Source: Oscillospiraceae bacterium (lineage in GTDB: Bacteria; Bacillota; Clostridia; Oscillospirales; Oscillospiraceae). Taken from it: a stretch of DNA of 51,570 nt. A program made the position numbers and the translations under genes. Positions 2,041-30,422 of this stretch are shown here, one piece after another. Location: contig JAFQCV010000062.1 of assembly GCA_017416325.1 (NCBI GenBank), positions 1-51,570 on the forward strand, given 5' to 3'. The notes under the pieces are model-generated. The model was not told where the DNA came from. It ran no database searches and saw nothing but the letters and a program-made list of their open reading frames with translations. Each line of letters opens with the position of its first letter. Position 1 is the first letter of the stretch.

Positions 2041-2091
2041 TTTTTCTGCGACAAACGCAACTTCCCATAAACACGCAGGAAGTGGGAGAAT

Positions 2092-2282
2092 CCAATGCGT
2101 AGGTCTTCTGACTCATGCTTGCAGCTCTGGGATGCTGCGATACTCTTTGCCTTCCCGGAAGATTCCAGTGACTGACTTTCATCATACAAGAGTACCATAG
2201 GCACATACAGCGGCGGTACCGTCCGGGATTCGCACCCGGTTATCTTGTTCAGCAGAATGAGCCTGACGCCCCCTCTGCCACG
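2092..2282 (-). promoter_or_regulatory. Cobalamin riboswitch aptamer
   Basis: On the minus strand the conserved blocks occur in order: GGTGCGAATCCCGGACGG, then ACCGCCGCTGTA, then CACTGG with CGGGAAGGC, and finally the B12 box AGTCAGAAGACCT. This order is diagnostic for adenosyl- or aquo-cobalamin aptamers. A terminator hairpin follows about 50 bases later. It should switch off the lipoprotein and ECF genes when cobalamin is plentiful. Confidence 0.93.
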
Positions 2283-2334
2283 CAATGGGTTATCAAATTG
2301 TCGGGATTATTGTAACAGGGTTGTTTGGGTTTGT

Positions 2335-24224: not shown

Positions 24225-26855
24225 ATGTCTCACAAGTATGTTTACCTGTTTACCGAGGGTAACGGCTCTATGCGTGAGCTGCTCGGCGGTAAGGGTGCTA
24301 ACCTGGCTGAAATGACCAACATCGGTCTGCCTGTTCCCCAGGGTTTCACCATCTCTACCGAAGCCTGTACCAAGTACTACGAAGATGGCCGTCAGATCAA
24401 CCCTGACATTCAGGCCGAAATCATGCAATACGTTGATAAGCTGGAAGCTATCACCGGCAAGAAGTTCGGTGACAAGGAGAATCCTCTGCTGGTCTCCGTC
24501 CGTTCCGGCGCCCGCGCCTCCATGCCCGGTATGATGGATACCATCCTGAACCTGGGCCTAAACGAAGAGGTGGTGGAGGTTCTGGCTGCCAAGTCCGGCA
24601 ACCCCCGTTGGGCTTATGACTGCTACCGCCGCTTTATCCAGATGTACTCCGATGTCGTTATGGAAGTGGGCAAGAAGTACTTCGAGGTCCTCATCGACGA
24701 GATGAAGGAGAAGAAGGGCGTCAAGCTGGACGTGGAGTTGACTGCGGAAGATCTGAAGGAGCTGGCTACCCAGTTCAAGGCTGAGTACAAGGCCAAGATC
24801 GGCGCCGAGTTCCCCACCGACCCCAAGGAGCAGCTGATGGGCGCTGTCAAGGCTGTTTTCCGCTCCTGGGACAACCCCCGCGCGAATGTCTACCGCCGCG
24901 AGAACGATATCCCCTACTCCTGGGGTACTGCTGTTAACGTCCAGTCCATGGCCTTCGGCAACATGGGTGACGATTGCGGCACCGGCGTTGCTTTCACCCG
25001 TAACCCCGCCACCGGCGAGAAGAAGCTGTTCGGCGAGTTCCTGACCAACGCCCAGGGCGAAGACGTTGTCGCCGGCGTTCGTACTCCCATGCCCATCTCT
25101 GAGATGGCTGAGAAGTTCCCCGAGGCTTTCCAGCAGTTCGTAAAGGTCTGCCAGATCCTGGAGGACCACTACCGCGACATGCAGGATATGGAGTTCACCG
25201 TAGAAAACGGCAAGCTGTATATGCTGCAGACCCGTAACGGCAAGCGTACCGCTCCCGCCGCTCTGAAGATCGCCTGCGATCTTGTAGACGAGGGCATGAT
25301 CGACGAGAAGAAGGCTGTTGCCATGATCGAGCCCAGAACGCTGGATACCCTGCTGCATCCCCAGTTCGACGCCAAGGCACTGAAGGCTGCTACCCCCATT
25401 GGCAAGGCTTTGGCTGCTTCTCCCGGAGCTGCTGCCGGTAAGATCGTTTTCACCGCTGAGGATGCCAAGGAATGGGCTGCCCGTGGTGAGAAGGTGGTTC
25501 TGGTTCGTCTGGAAACTTCCCCCGAGGATATCGAAGGCATGATGGCCGCTCAGGGTATTCTGACCGTTCGCGGCGGCATGACCTCTCACGCAGCCGTTGT
25601 TGCCCGCGGCATGGGTACCTGCTGCGTTTCCGGCTGCACCGAGATCGCCATGGACGAGGAGAACAAGGTGTTCACTCTGGCTGGCAAGACCTTCCGTGAG
25701 GGCGACGAGCTGTCCCTGGACGGCTCCACCGGTAACATCTACGACGGCCTGATCCCCACCAAGGAAGCGGAGATCGCCGGCGAGTTCGGCCGCATCATGG
25801 CTTGGGCTGACCAGTACCGCACACTGAAGGTTCGCACCAATGCTGACTCCCCCCGTGACGCCAAGAAGGCTCGCGAGCTGGGCGCGGAAGGTATCGGTCT
25901 GTGCCGTACCGAGCATATGTTCTTCGAGGAAGGCCGTATCGGACCCTTCCGTGAAATGATCTGCTCCGACACCGTGGAAGAGCGGGAAGCCGCTCTGGCT
26001 AAGATCCTGCCCATGCAGCAGGCTGACTTCGAGGGCCTGTACGAGGTCATGGAAGGCAACCCCGTTTGCATCCGCTTCCTGGATCCCCCTCTGCACGAGT
26101 TCGTTCCCACCACTGAGGAAGACATCGCCGCACTGGCTGCTACCCAGGGCAAGAGTGTGGAGCGCATCAAGGAGATCATCTCCTCCCTGCACGAGTTCAA
26201 CCCCATGATGGGTCACCGTGGCTGCCGTCTGAGCGTCACCTATCCCGAGATTGCTGCTATGCAGACCAAGGCTGTCATCCGGGCTGCCATCGCTGTTGCC
26301 AAGCGTCATCCCGACTGGAACAACGTTCCTGAGATCATGATCCCCCTGGTTGGCGACGTGAAGGAACTGAAGTACGTCAAGGAAGTTGTCGTTAAGACTG
26401 CTGACGCTGAGATCAAAGCGGCCGGCATTGACCTGAAGTACGAGGTCGGCACCATGATCGAGATCCCCAGAGCTTGCCTGACTGCCGATGAGATCGCGCA
26501 GGAAGCTGAGTTCTTCTGCTTCGGCACCAACGACCTGACTCAGATGACCTTCGGCTTCAGCCGTGACGATGCCGGCAAGTTCCTGAATGCTTACTATGAG
26601 CGCAAGATCTTCGAGAACGATCCCTTCGCCAAGCTGGACCAGAACGGTGTCGGCCTGCTGATGGAGATGGCTGTCTCCAAGGGCAAGGCCAGCGGCAACA
26701 AGCTGCACTACGGTATCTGCGGCGAGCACGGCGGCGATCCCATGTCCGTTGAGTTCTGCCACAAGATCGGTCTGGACTACGTGTCCTGCAGCCCCTTCCG
26801 CGTGCCCATCGCAAGACTGGCTGCCGCTCAGGCTGCTATCAAAGAAAGCAAGTAA
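24225..26855 (+). CDS. ppdK: Pyruvate, phosphate dikinase
   Basis: PPDK interconverts pyruvate, ATP and phosphate with phosphoenolpyruvate, AMP and pyrophosphate, central to PPi-linked glycolysis in anaerobic clostridia. The 876 residues match the Clostridium symbiosum enzyme. They form an N-terminal ATP-grasp domain, the swivelling phosphohistidine domain with His455 in GGMTSHAAVVARGMG, and a C-terminal PEP/pyruvate barrel ending GICGEHGGDP. GGGAG precedes the ATG. Codon bias indicates high expression. Its last 45 bases resemble short sequences repeated downstream at 27.4, 28.35 and 30.05 kb. Confidence 0.98.
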   Translation: MSHKYVYLFTEGNGSMRELLGGKGANLAEMTNIGLPVPQGFTISTEACTKYYEDGRQINPDIQAEIMQYVDKLEAITGKKFGDKENPLLVSVRSGARASMPGMMDTILNLGLNEEVVEVLAAKSGNPRWAYDCYRRFIQMYSDVVMEVGKKYFEVLIDEMKEKKGVKLDVELTAEDLKELATQFKAEYKAKIGAEFPTDPKEQLMGAVKAVFRSWDNPRANVYRRENDIPYSWGTAVNVQSMAFGNMGDDCGTGVAFTRNPATGEKKLFGEFLTNAQGEDVVAGVRTPMPISEMAEKFPEAFQQFVKVCQILEDHYRDMQDMEFTVENGKLYMLQTRNGKRTAPAALKIACDLVDEGMIDEKKAVAMIEPRTLDTLLHPQFDAKALKAATPIGKALAASPGAAAGKIVFTAEDAKEWAARGEKVVLVRLETSPEDIEGMMAAQGILTVRGGMTSHAAVVARGMGTCCVSGCTEIAMDEENKVFTLAGKTFREGDELSLDGSTGNIYDGLIPTKEAEIAGEFGRIMAWADQYRTLKVRTNADSPRDAKKARELGAEGIGLCRTEHMFFEEGRIGPFREMICSDTVEEREAALAKILPMQQADFEGLYEVMEGNPVCIRFLDPPLHEFVPTTEEDIAALAATQGKSVERIKEIISSLHEFNPMMGHRGCRLSVTYPEIAAMQTKAVIRAAIAVAKRHPDWNNVPEIMIPLVGDVKELKYVKEVVVKTADAEIKAAGIDLKYEVGTMIEIPRACLTADEIAQEAEFFCFGTNDLTQMTFGFSRDDAGKFLNAYYERKIFENDPFAKLDQNGVGLLMEMAVSKGKASGNKLHYGICGEHGGDPMSVEFCHKIGLDYVSCSPFRVPIARLAAAQAAIKESK

Positions 26856-28341: not shown

Positions 28342-28388
28342 CTTTTGCGCACTGCGGCTCAGGCTGCCATCAAGGGCTAATAGCTAAC
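28342..28388 (+). repeat. ppdK 3'-end-like sequence, copy 2
   Basis: CTTTTGCGCACTGCGGCTC-AGGCTGCCATCAAGGGCTAA reads LLRTAAQAAIKG-stop, followed by TAGCTAAC. This is the copy closest to the ppdK end (CGCTCAGGCTGCTATCAAAG). Confidence 0.65.
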
Positions 28389-28428
28389 AATAAAACTGCC
28401 TCCTACGGGAGGCAGTTTTATTGTTAGC
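28383..28428 (+). terminator. 21-bp perfect terminator stem with GCTAAC/GTTAGC ends
   Basis: GCTAACAATAAAACTGCC continues to a four-base loop and returns as its exact inverse ending GTTAGC. The equivalent at 30090-30134 keeps the outer six pairs while inner pairs differ on both sides. Confidence 0.85.
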
Positions 28429-28430
28429 AG

Positions 28431-28600
28431 CGATATAAATCCCGTTGGGATTTTCGATATTCCCCTTTGGGGATCGATATGTGCTTAAGGCACTCGATAT
28501 GTTTGCTCCGCAAACGAGGATTTATATCATATCGACTGGCGAAGCCATATATCGATTTTGCGAAGCAAAAATATCGAGCCGCAGGCATATCGACAACCCC
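28431..28600. repeat. Array of small hairpins separated by ATATCGA, copy 1
   Basis: CGATATAAATCC opens and GGATTTATATCATATCGA closes the first part. The embedded hairpins are TCCCC-TTT-GGGGA, GTGC-TTAAG-GCAC and GTTTGC-TCC-GCAAAC. Then come TGGC-GAA-GCCA, TTTTGC-GAA-GCAAAA and GCC-GCA-GGC, each spaced by ATATCGA. A second copy at 30.14-30.25 kb has different stems and the same spacers. Confidence 0.75.
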
Positions 28601-28653
28601 GCCGAGCAATTCGGGTGGATTTTTGTATTGCTCCGTGGGGATTTTTGTGTCTA

Positions 28654-28682
28654 TTGCAAAATTTTAGAAACCGTGCTATACT
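28654..28682 (+). promoter_or_regulatory. Sigma-A promoter of the MFS gene
   Basis: TTGCAA and TATACT are 17 bases apart, with TGC before the -10 box, 74 bases before the start codon. Confidence 0.75.
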
Positions 28683-28756
28683 GAGCAACAGCAGTTTCTA
28701 CCCGCGGGACTCGCTGCCCGAAATGTACTTATTGGAATATCCATAGGAGTTATGAT

Positions 28757-30010
28757 ATGAAGCAACTGTTCACCCAGTACGCCGGATTAAAAAAGGAGAT
28801 CTATATTCTGTTTATCGGCAAGCTGGTTACGGCAATGGGCTCTTTTGTATGGCCCATGCTTACCTTTTTCCTGACTACCAAGCTGGGGCTGTCTGACGGC
28901 ACATCCACCTTGCTGATCGCCACTGCCTCCGTTCTTTCCTTTCCTGCTGCCCTATTGGGCGGCAAGCTGGCTGACCGGTTTGACCGAAAAACCATCATCA
29001 TTATATTTGATTTCCTGACGATCAGCCTGTATCTGCTGGCTGCGATTTTGCCCCTTACCATCGTTACCGCGGCGATCCTGTTTCTTGCGGGCCTGTTTCA
29101 AACGATCGAATCCCCGGCATACGACGCGCTGAACGCCGACTATTCCACCTCCGAACAGCGGGTGAAGGCCTATTCTCTTTCCTATTTGGGTTTCAATTTG
29201 GGCTTCATTGTCGGCGCCAGTGTCTCTGGTATTTTGTTTGAAAACTTCCTGCGTCTGGCTTTCTGCATCAACGGTCTGGTGATTCTCGTTTCCACGGTAT
29301 TGATCATCTTCTTCGTGCATCCCAAAAATGCGGTTTCGCAGGATGCCGCTACCATGAAAGAGAATTACAGCGCGTATGAGCTTCCGGTGGATGAGAAGAT
29401 CTCTGTGATGACGGTCCTCCGGCAGCGGCCTGTGCTGATCTATATGCTGCTGCTCGGATGCTTTGCCTCCATGCCCTCCAATCTGGTGGGCATCCTGCTC
29501 CCCCTGCAGCTGAAAGACGCGATGGGAGAGGCCGGCGCTACCATATACGGATATCTCAACTCCCTTAACGGCTTTGTGGTCATTCTGTTTACGCCCATTT
29601 TTACTGTCCTGCTGAGAAGATTCACCGAGATCCCCAAGACTATCCTTGGCCTTTTGCTGTTTGTTGCCGGTATCGCCTTCTTCTCCATCAATACCGCCAC
29701 AGCCGTTCTTTTTGTCGGCATGTTCATCTTTACCCTGGGCGAGGTGATCACCGTGCTGGGCAACAACCCCTACACCTCCCGCCGTGTCCCCGCTTCTCAC
29801 AGAGGCCGGGTAGGCGGCATCTCTACGGTGGTCCACTCGGTATTCTCGTCCTTAACCCAATACCTGATCAGTTTTATGCTGATCGTGACCCAAAGCAATT
29901 ACAAGCTGCTGTGGACGGTCTTTATCGTCTGCGGTCTTGTGTCTGCAGGGCTGTACGGGTTTCTGTACGCACCGGATAAACGGACCTTTCCGAAGCTGTA
30001 CCAAAAGTAA
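28757..30010 (+). CDS. Major facilitator superfamily transporter
   Basis: The 417-residue protein has twelve predicted membrane segments and MFS motif A between helices 2 and 3 (GGKLADRFDRKTI). It resembles drug/metabolite exporters of the DHA type, but no substrate-defining motif was seen. AGGAG lies upstream of the ATG. It is a single-gene unit with its own promoter, followed by a ppdK-end-like copy, a GCTAAC terminator and a hairpin array. Composition is close to the core genome, unlike the two genes before it. Confidence 0.88.
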   Translation: MKQLFTQYAGLKKEIYILFIGKLVTAMGSFVWPMLTFFLTTKLGLSDGTSTLLIATASVLSFPAALLGGKLADRFDRKTIIIIFDFLTISLYLLAAILPLTIVTAAILFLAGLFQTIESPAYDALNADYSTSEQRVKAYSLSYLGFNLGFIVGASVSGILFENFLRLAFCINGLVILVSTVLIIFFVHPKNAVSQDAATMKENYSAYELPVDEKISVMTVLRQRPVLIYMLLLGCFASMPSNLVGILLPLQLKDAMGEAGATIYGYLNSLNGFVVILFTPIFTVLLRRFTEIPKTILGLLLFVAGIAFFSINTATAVLFVGMFIFTLGEVITVLGNNPYTSRRVPASHRGRVGGISTVVHSVFSSLTQYLISFMLIVTQSNYKLLWTVFIVCGLVSAGLYGFLYAPDKRTFPKLYQK

Positions 30011-30048
30011 CTGTATAAAAACGATCCCTTCAGGTTTGTATACGACCC

Positions 30049-30095
30049 CTTTTGCGTACTGCTGTGCAGGCTGCCATTAAGGGCTAATTGCTAAC
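30049..30095 (+). repeat. ppdK 3'-end-like sequence, copy 3
   Basis: CTTTTGCGTACTGCTGTGC-AGGCTGCCATTAAGGGCTAA reads LLRTAVQAAIKG-stop, followed by TTGCTAAC. The ppdK end likewise continues TAATTGCTGAC. Confidence 0.65.
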
Positions 30096-30134
30096 GAAAA
30101 AAGCCACCCTACGGGGTGGCTTTTTTTCGTTAGC
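30090..30134 (+). terminator. Terminator with conserved GCTAAC/GTTAGC ends
   Basis: GCTAACGAAAAAAGCCACCC pairs with its inverse ending TTCGTTAGC around a short loop. It directly precedes the second hairpin array. Confidence 0.85.
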
Positions 30135-30136
30135 AT

Positions 30137-30255
30137 CGATATAAATCCCTTGCAGGGCGAGGGAGATTTATATCATATCGAATGGGCTTCCGCCCATATA
30201 TCGAATTTGCCGTCAGGCAAATATATCGAGCTTTGCAACGCAAAACATATCGACA
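30137..30255. repeat. Array of small hairpins separated by ATATCGA, copy 2
   Basis: CGATATAAATC and GATTTATATCATATCGA enclose CCCT-TGC-AGGG. Then come ATGGGC-TTCC-GCCCAT, ATTTGCC-GTC-AGGCAAAT and TTTGC-AAC-GCAAA, each separated by ATATCGA. The framework equals copy 1 while most stem sequences differ. Confidence 0.75.
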
Positions 30256-30422
30256 ATAAAAATGGGGCAACTCTTTCGAGCCGCCCCAACAGATTTATCA
30301 TATCACACCATTATAGGGCAAGTCAATGATAATTCGCTTTAGAAAGACAGTTTCTACCTATTGCATGATTTCCGGCTCTCCGGCAGCTCTTTTTACCCTG
30401 AAATCTTGTGGAACATCCCATC

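Follow-up and report, generated by a model that had tools for sequence, protein, structure and literature searches.

The two hairpin arrays in the window (the whole 51,570-nt stretch of Oscillospiraceae DNA that was analyzed), here named copies A and B, are probably solo copies of a mobile element whose PF05635 protein would recognize the element's own heptamer, with the hairpins acting as single-stranded DNA, a reading given a probability of roughly 0.58. The element comprises two inverted half-arrays, each usually of four "perfect hairpin plus ATATCGA" units, in its complete form linked to a cognate PF05635/TIGR02436 gene starting just after one of the outer ATATCGA words. The four-helix protein would recognize the heptamers in single-stranded form, with the hairpins as rigid separators that present them, and recognition would mark the element ends for copying into new intergenic sites; cutting and joining may fall to host replication or recombination, or to a nuclease. 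A selfish element with a heptamer-reading protein would explain the linkage of arrays to PF05635 genes, the clade-associated spacers, the solo copies and the DNA-type hairpins.

Two hairpin arrays with fixed ATATCGA words, as the original prediction had them, were found at 28431-28596 (copy A) and 30136-30256 (copy B), and both indeed start two bases after a hairpin with GCTAAC/GTTAGC ends (Table 1). The fixed spacers of the predicted series of hairpins held, but not the single series, as the left half of copy A uses TCGATAT; because this is the reverse complement of the right-half spacer, copy A consists of two inverted half-arrays. Its outermost left spacer reads GCGATAT, retaining 6 of the 7 bases of the word. 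Three hairpins stand between spacers on each side, and the centre is made of a fourth hairpin and GGATTTATATC, which is a near copy of the h1 3' arm plus ATATC and complements GATATAAATCC at 28432-28442. The outer hairpin of copy A (h0) is terminator-like, with a 21-bp stem, and adjoins the first spacer on its left; outer hairpins were also seen by eye at several other array copies. In copy B the reduced left half continues after TCGATAT with AAATCCC..., followed by GATTTATATC (30165-30174). On both strands of the window, ATATCGA occurs 18 times against 3.7 expected, a count reached in 0 of 100 shuffles. Folding as single-stranded DNA gave z = -5.8 for copy A and -5.7 for copy B, with 0 of 200 shuffles equally stable; in the best fold of copy A, which makes up 0.5% of the ensemble, left words pair with right words and the hairpins stand at the joints.

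Table 1. Features of copies A and B and their surroundings (positions in the window).
Feature	Position	Strand	Description
Cobalamin riboswitch	2084..2297	-	Rfam match
Pyruvate phosphate dikinase (ppdK) gene, 3' end	26821..26855		Gene named by Pfam; both remnants match at 26821-26842
ppdK-like 3'-end remnant before copy A	28348..28380	+	57-nt repeat D1, 84%
Outer hairpin h0, copy A	28383..28428	.	Inverted repeat I1, 100% complementary
Copy A left half	28431..28515	.	Spacers at 28431 (CGATAT), 28454, 28474 and 28494 (last three TCGATAT); hairpins h1 28437-28453, h2 28461-28473, h3 28481-28493, h4 28501-28515
Copy A centre	28518..28528	+	Inverted repeat I9
Copy A right half	28529..28596	+	ATATCGA at 28529, 28549, 28571 and 28587; hairpins 28536-28548, 28556-28570, 28578-28586; end CAA
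Major-facilitator transporter gene	28757..30010	+	MFS_1, E 4.3e-41
Second ppdK-like remnant, before copy B	30055..30087	+	Repeat D1
Outer hairpin h0, copy B	30090..30134	.	GCTAAC/GTTAGC ends as in copy A, different stem
Copy B reduced left half and centre	30136..30174	.	Single TCGATAT at 30136-30142
Copy B right half	30175..30256	+	ATATCGA at 30175, 30198, 30223 and 30247; hairpins 30182-30197, 30205-30222, 30230-30246; end CAA

The transporter gene lies between the two direct copies, outside the array, as a passenger. The 3' end of ppdK is repeated twice downstream, each time with a terminator hairpin and an array. Further short stretches matching the end of ppdK turned up in genus genomes G011, G022, G033, G055, G072, G076, G084 and G098, a pattern that a site of integration or duplication might leave. 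No PF05635 ORF was seen in the window copies, and no ATATCGA-clade protein gene was among the matches listed for their own genome (86% complete), so that the copies are solo as far as seen. The same genome holds at least four PF05635 genes, with no more than 57% identity to either clade protein taken as a query (two in all), among the matches listed.

Read in the array direction, the arrays consist of an outer hairpin (often present), TCGATAT words with hairpins h1 to h4, the centre, ATATCGA words with hairpins and, usually, CAA. Full arrays usually carry up to four words per side, or five where the centre repeats the word, a reading that left 11 of 58 full arrays unoriented. Among 196 runs of at least three words, 124 have four, 66 three and 6 five. 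Four loci (L066, L076, L103 and L147) have the reversed order, an ATATCGA run, a short middle and a TCGATAT run, like two right halves facing each other.

Hairpins were counted as distinct sequences from the fetched loci, with pairing scored by script. The expectation that stems vary and stay paired was confirmed: among 339 distinct flush hairpins, 167 different sequences serve as the 5' arm, and stems that no longer covary, the outcome named as speaking against it, were not what further copies revealed: their stems keep pairing. Runs were kept only if at least two hairpins formed, which gave 398 distinct segments, 321 of them having four or more flush pairs, as the source of the 339 hairpins; when all runs are counted, a hairpin forms in 465 of the 634 segments that lie between spacers of like orientation, unrelated tandem repeats included. 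At least four flush pairs were present in 302 of the 339, against a shuffled mean of 7 and maximum of 17. In these selected hairpins 97.7% of pairs are Watson-Crick. In the count by half-array described below, G-T pairs are rare (45 among 2038 stem pairs); on the heptamer strand G-T exceeds A-C by 45 to 21 overall, with no such excess within the X or Y class alone.

In the same 339 hairpins, GNA accounts for 87 of 157 triloops and GNNA for 84 of 148 tetraloops, and C-G closes 161 of these 171 loops; GNYA (47) is more frequent than GNRA (37), and UUCG was met once in 148 tetraloops. According to the portion of PMC4686876 that was available, GNA/GNNA loops on G-C stems form extraordinarily stable DNA mini-hairpins. 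On the ATATCGA strand, GNA/GNNA loops occur in 44 of 88 X-half, 58 of 97 Y-half and 99 of 202 unclassed hairpins, against 1, 1 and 0 loops of the complementary types, in a classing in which 102 of 196 half-arrays fell in neither X nor Y. Template switching during replication inside tandem heptamers could make and repair perfect palindromes as a mutational by-product devoid of function. The almost perfect stems are consistent with this, as is one large PF05635 clade with bare heptamers and no hairpins (see below), but it would not lead one to expect GNA/GNNA loops, their preference for one strand or the prevalence of runs with four spacers (124 of 196), and it is regarded as very unlikely.

The centre repeats the 3' arm of a left-hand hairpin in 45 of 85 full arrays, in one orientation only and in 16 sequences, compared with 4 of 1700 for shuffled centres and 66 of 889 when the same centre was set against another array; the three-way match is absent from 40 of the 85. 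Where the arm is repeated, three segments therefore change together and two pairings compete.

Competing pairings, here between the outer left hairpin and a centre sharing a third copy of the stem, are a property of switches, and would suit a structured RNA, with the array as a 5'-UTR or small RNA that works, once transcribed, through its hairpins and spacers. Such an RNA would also agree with gene orientation around 60 oriented arrays, where by simple ORF calls the upstream gene points to the array in 37 cases versus 12 and the downstream gene points away in 27 versus 14, and with the pairing of left and right spacers in the best fold of copy A, though that fold is a small part of the ensemble. 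However, loop type tracks the ATATCGA strand in both halves, so that no single transcript shows GNA/GNNA loops in both, and this strand rule decides for DNA unless both strands are transcribed. The scarcity of UUCG, the excess of GNYA over GNRA and the high share of Watson-Crick pairs also argue against RNA. Under DNA and RNA parameters alike, folding is more favorable for the heptamer strand than for its complement, so folding energies alone do not decide. The original prediction had proposed a search of Rfam; no match was found over the window arrays or over five array loci (L001, L006, L080, L340 and L353). Its broader claim of a selected structure, either a noncoding RNA or a single-stranded DNA substrate, thus stands as to structure, and the DNA branch fits better; the strand rule and the missing Rfam match speak against the noncoding RNA branch. 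A reading of the arrays as RNA is not supported, and a structured RNA is considered quite improbable.

Inspection by eye of 132 distinct arrays revealed at least 12 that are followed, 11-24 nt after their end, by the start codon of a gene encoding a four-helix-bundle protein; most have no PF05635 gene directly behind them. In L475 the distance is 44 nt. The proteins of four gene-linked copies match PF05635, and both proteins compared with TIGR02436 match it. A pentamer is suggested by the PDB relative 2rld (5 chains, E 3.2e-22) and by the Xcc0516 structure described below. To our knowledge, no catalytic motif has been recognized in PF05635. The family, named "23S rRNA intervening sequence protein", was first met as ORFs in rRNA insertions and has no known function according to the available text of PMC4990558, and Xcc0516, a member from Xanthomonas with a solved structure, assembles from five identical four-helix bundles into a homopentamer (PMC4990558 and PMC3936711, both in part).

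Array and gene are associated at the level of genomes as well. Cognate genes (at least 70% identity) were present in 8 of 101 genus genomes, with an array upstream in 8 of 8, against 0 of 21 more distant PF05635 loci examined from the same search. Among the matches listed, a cognate gene accompanied 7 of 16 array-rich genus genomes and none was found in the other 9, including that of the window; arrays in these 9 may be relics, may be supplied from elsewhere, or their genes may have been missed in incomplete genomes. In the order sample, three words in a row were found, among the matches listed, in 32 of 394 genomes from 22 genera (control none), one of which (G443) is a chance match without hairpins. 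A PF05635-type homologue was listed for 31 of these 32 versus 141 of the 362 others, the odd one being G443; with G443 moved to the others (31/31 vs 141/363, among the matches listed) the Fisher test gave p 1.3e-12, which is a guide only because the genomes are related.

An array could also be the control site of its own PF05635 gene, in an autoregulated and perhaps addictive arrangement, with solo arrays spread by other means or serving as decoys. The short distance between 12 gene-linked arrays and the start codon and the tracking of protein clade by spacer class speak for such an operator; most arrays, however, lack an adjoining PF05635 gene, array and gene sit together in the carB-pyrK junction described below, and a PADLOC defence-system scan of two PF05635 proteins gave no match. 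This explanation is unlikely. A defence system was rejected on the same PADLOC result.

PF05635 also resembles Avd of diversity-generating retroelements, as stated in the consulted part of PMC10053308, and PF05635 ORFs occur in rRNA-gene insertions (PMC4990558 and PMC11270868, each in part) and close behind SRP RNA, so the protein might act like Avd, with a reverse transcriptase in trans and array RNA as the intermediate. One of five proteins scanned matched the Avd model at E 0.0085, below the model cut-off (best 16.4 bits vs 80), but the loop types favor hairpins formed by one strand in the left half and by the other strand in the right half, and retro-mobility of this kind is improbable. 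The loci behind the large SRP RNA gene (L365, L373 and L382) are PF05635 genes with heptamer-like repeats. On cyanobacterial plasmids, a PF05635 gene lies between cas2 and cas1 (L562, L564) or beside restriction-modification genes (L560, L565); IVP genes in cas loci were noted earlier (PMC3936711, in part). Behind arrays or a PF05635 gene, ORFs of ~100 aa that look alike by eye were seen in three genomes (L349 1233-1529, L322 and L351), and the two tested had no Pfam match.

The genome of the window (2.0 Mb in 90 contigs) contains two words 9 to 32 bases apart 32 times, 2 of them without hairpins, against 0 for the reversed-pattern control, and its arrays lie at eight or nine places, with contigs C26 and C75 possibly sharing one array. 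Counts in the genus sample of 101 genomes were patchy, with at least 5 matches in 16 genomes among the matches listed; as controls reach 0 to 2 per genome, single matches are background. The highest number was in G068, with 60 listed spacer-pair matches (control 2), including arrays that are almost the same at several places, each place flanked by different sequence, and that in some cases lie in tandem. A scan of named genomes yielded at least 120 stretches, and 49 of the 80 listed carry Clostridia names; the other rows include unrelated tandem repeats. A pattern scan of viral contigs yielded 86 stretches, which were fed into the hairpin counts by script, and one IMG/VR contig (L213) holds a full ATATCGA array by script. 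A gene resembling RNA m5U methyltransferases has an array at its 3' end in L080 (by Pfam) and, by eye, in L085, L349 and L322, where the last codons of the gene form one arm of the outer hairpin (likewise by eye in the latter three).

Occupied and empty sites were found at the carB-pyrK junction, which was resolved at 17 of 30 carB loci (carB named by Pfam), 13 being left out where pyrK was not located; pyrK is presumed from a motif plus an NAD-binding domain. Stop and start are separated by 9 nt in 7 of the 17, G055 and G057 carry an array plus a PF05635 gene within the junction, and the rest have 6 other inserts and 2 short spacers. In G066 an array plus PF05635 gene follows carB, then another ORF. 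The empty sites belong to other species with diverged flanks, in which target-site duplications are not readable. Judged from these genome comparisons, dispersed near-identical copies and the occupied versus empty junction indicate that the arrays are mobile. The original prediction had offered a known transposon end as a competing account of the structure; the mobile-element reading comes close to this, and the structural claim stands.

Other spacer words accompany other branches of the protein family. Among the 30 nearest protein relatives in the order sample, picked regardless of arrays, 5 have ATATCGA-type spacers upstream (including L471, with three left-type words only and no intact array), and others have hairpin arrays with ATATCGC, ATATCAC, ATTTCAC, TATAACT, GATGAAA and more. 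On a tree of 104 proteins, the 88 labelled in 12 spacer classes required 14 label changes, against a mean of 58.7 and minimum of 52 in 200 shuffles, and 25 (shuffled mean 72) with the 16 label-less proteins added back to give 104, for a tree of 119 columns in which 39 of 101 inner branches are open and for spacer classes drawn after seeing the data. Different PF05635 branches thus tend to be accompanied by different repeated words, an agreement that joint inheritance of linked DNA can also produce.

In another large clade the gene is preceded by tandem heptamers with no hairpins between them, in most cases four or five words when one mismatch is allowed; 20 of the 22 genes labelled so are also followed by at least two inverted heptamers (shuffled mean 0.28). 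The upstream heptamer count exceeded the best of five shuffles in 14 of these 22 and in 73 of all 104, a count that is partly circular for this "tandem7" class because the class is defined by period-7 regularity. In ATATCGA-labelled genes, at least two inverted heptamers lie within 180 nt after the stop in only 3 of 15. Period-7 repeats also flank PF05635 genes on plasmids of Bacteroidota, Cyanobacteriota, Spirochaetota, Chloroflexota and Clostridia (10 of 26 records, picked for taxonomic spread), scoring above all 200 shuffles on at least one side in 10 of 10 and on both sides in 7 of 10; there period 7 outscores every other period from 4 to 11. By eye, two human-gut phage contigs (L568 and L569) have PF05635 genes accompanied by hairpin arrays with different spacer words; their period-7 scores are not above shuffles, hairpins standing between the words.

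As a tentative proposal, rated somewhat below even odds, PF05635 proteins across bacteria may share a general mode of recognition in which each clade has heptamer arrays of its own, bare in one branch and separated by hairpins in another, forming selfish elements with no known transposase. Such a system would account for many heptanucleotide repeats in bacterial genomes that so far lack an explanation. The pairing of protein clade and heptamer gives PF05635 proteins a testable substrate and ties them to these repeats, and the arrays point to a mobile element that would work via single-stranded DNA hairpins with no recognized transposase.

In logic, the nearest analogue is the REP/BIME-RAYT system, in which intergenic palindromes are dispersed in both orientations and repeats and protein co-vary by clade (PMC2817692, in part). 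The arrays and PF05635 genes co-vary by clade in the same manner, and further parallels with the available text of that paper are a gene flanked by cognate repeats and a tied copy number, so the arrays might belong to the REP/BIME class, with mobility supplied by a Y1 tyrosine transposase (RAYT). Y1_Tnp was found in 15 of 26 array-bearing and 5 of 16 array-free genomes, but is absent from 11 of the 26, including the most array-rich, G068; these genomes are incomplete, although six of the 11 are at least 94% complete. The GT(A/G)G head of REP was not seen beside the palindromes, where the flanking word read is ATATCGA itself. A Y1 transposase, not always being present, was rejected as the partner, and a REP/RAYT origin is highly improbable. 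Unlike REP/RAYT, the arrays are partnered by a four-helix-bundle protein with no known catalysis, and their stems vary freely around a fixed heptamer linker in a layout usually of 4 + 4. MITEs are likewise short, gene-less, inverted-symmetric, intergenic and dispersed; the arrays differ in that no transposase-type partner was shown. Elhai 2008 is said to deal with small repeats of cyanobacteria.

The G-rich heptamers of Xanthomonas and Nostoc come mostly in four units and frequently form convergent pairs; they lie close to start and stop codons where neighboring genes run in the same direction, and unlike the arrays are head-to-tail with no hairpins between units (PMC4692102, in part); the terms "S23", "four helix" and "intervening" do not occur in the main text of that paper as available. 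In the literature covered, in which subscription journals are thinly represented, no link of PF05635 to dispersed hairpin or heptamer arrays was found, the heptamers of the Coxiella IVS aside. This 23S rRNA IVS, presumed selfish, has tandem heptamers GACAGAT before an S23p ORF (PMC4990558, in part) and is, by analogy, the nearest system in protein: arrays and IVS share the PF05635/TIGR02436 ORF and heptamers before it, with hairpins interposed in the ATATCGA clade. Unlike the IVS, the arrays examined are multicopy, occupy gaps between protein genes, have hairpins that separate the heptamers and include gene-less copies; no insertion inside 23S rRNA was seen among them, and the five array loci gave no rRNA match. 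Because one defining feature of each is lacking, the arrays were filed under neither REP/RAYT nor IVS, and we call them a variant of their own among the small dispersed palindromic elements.
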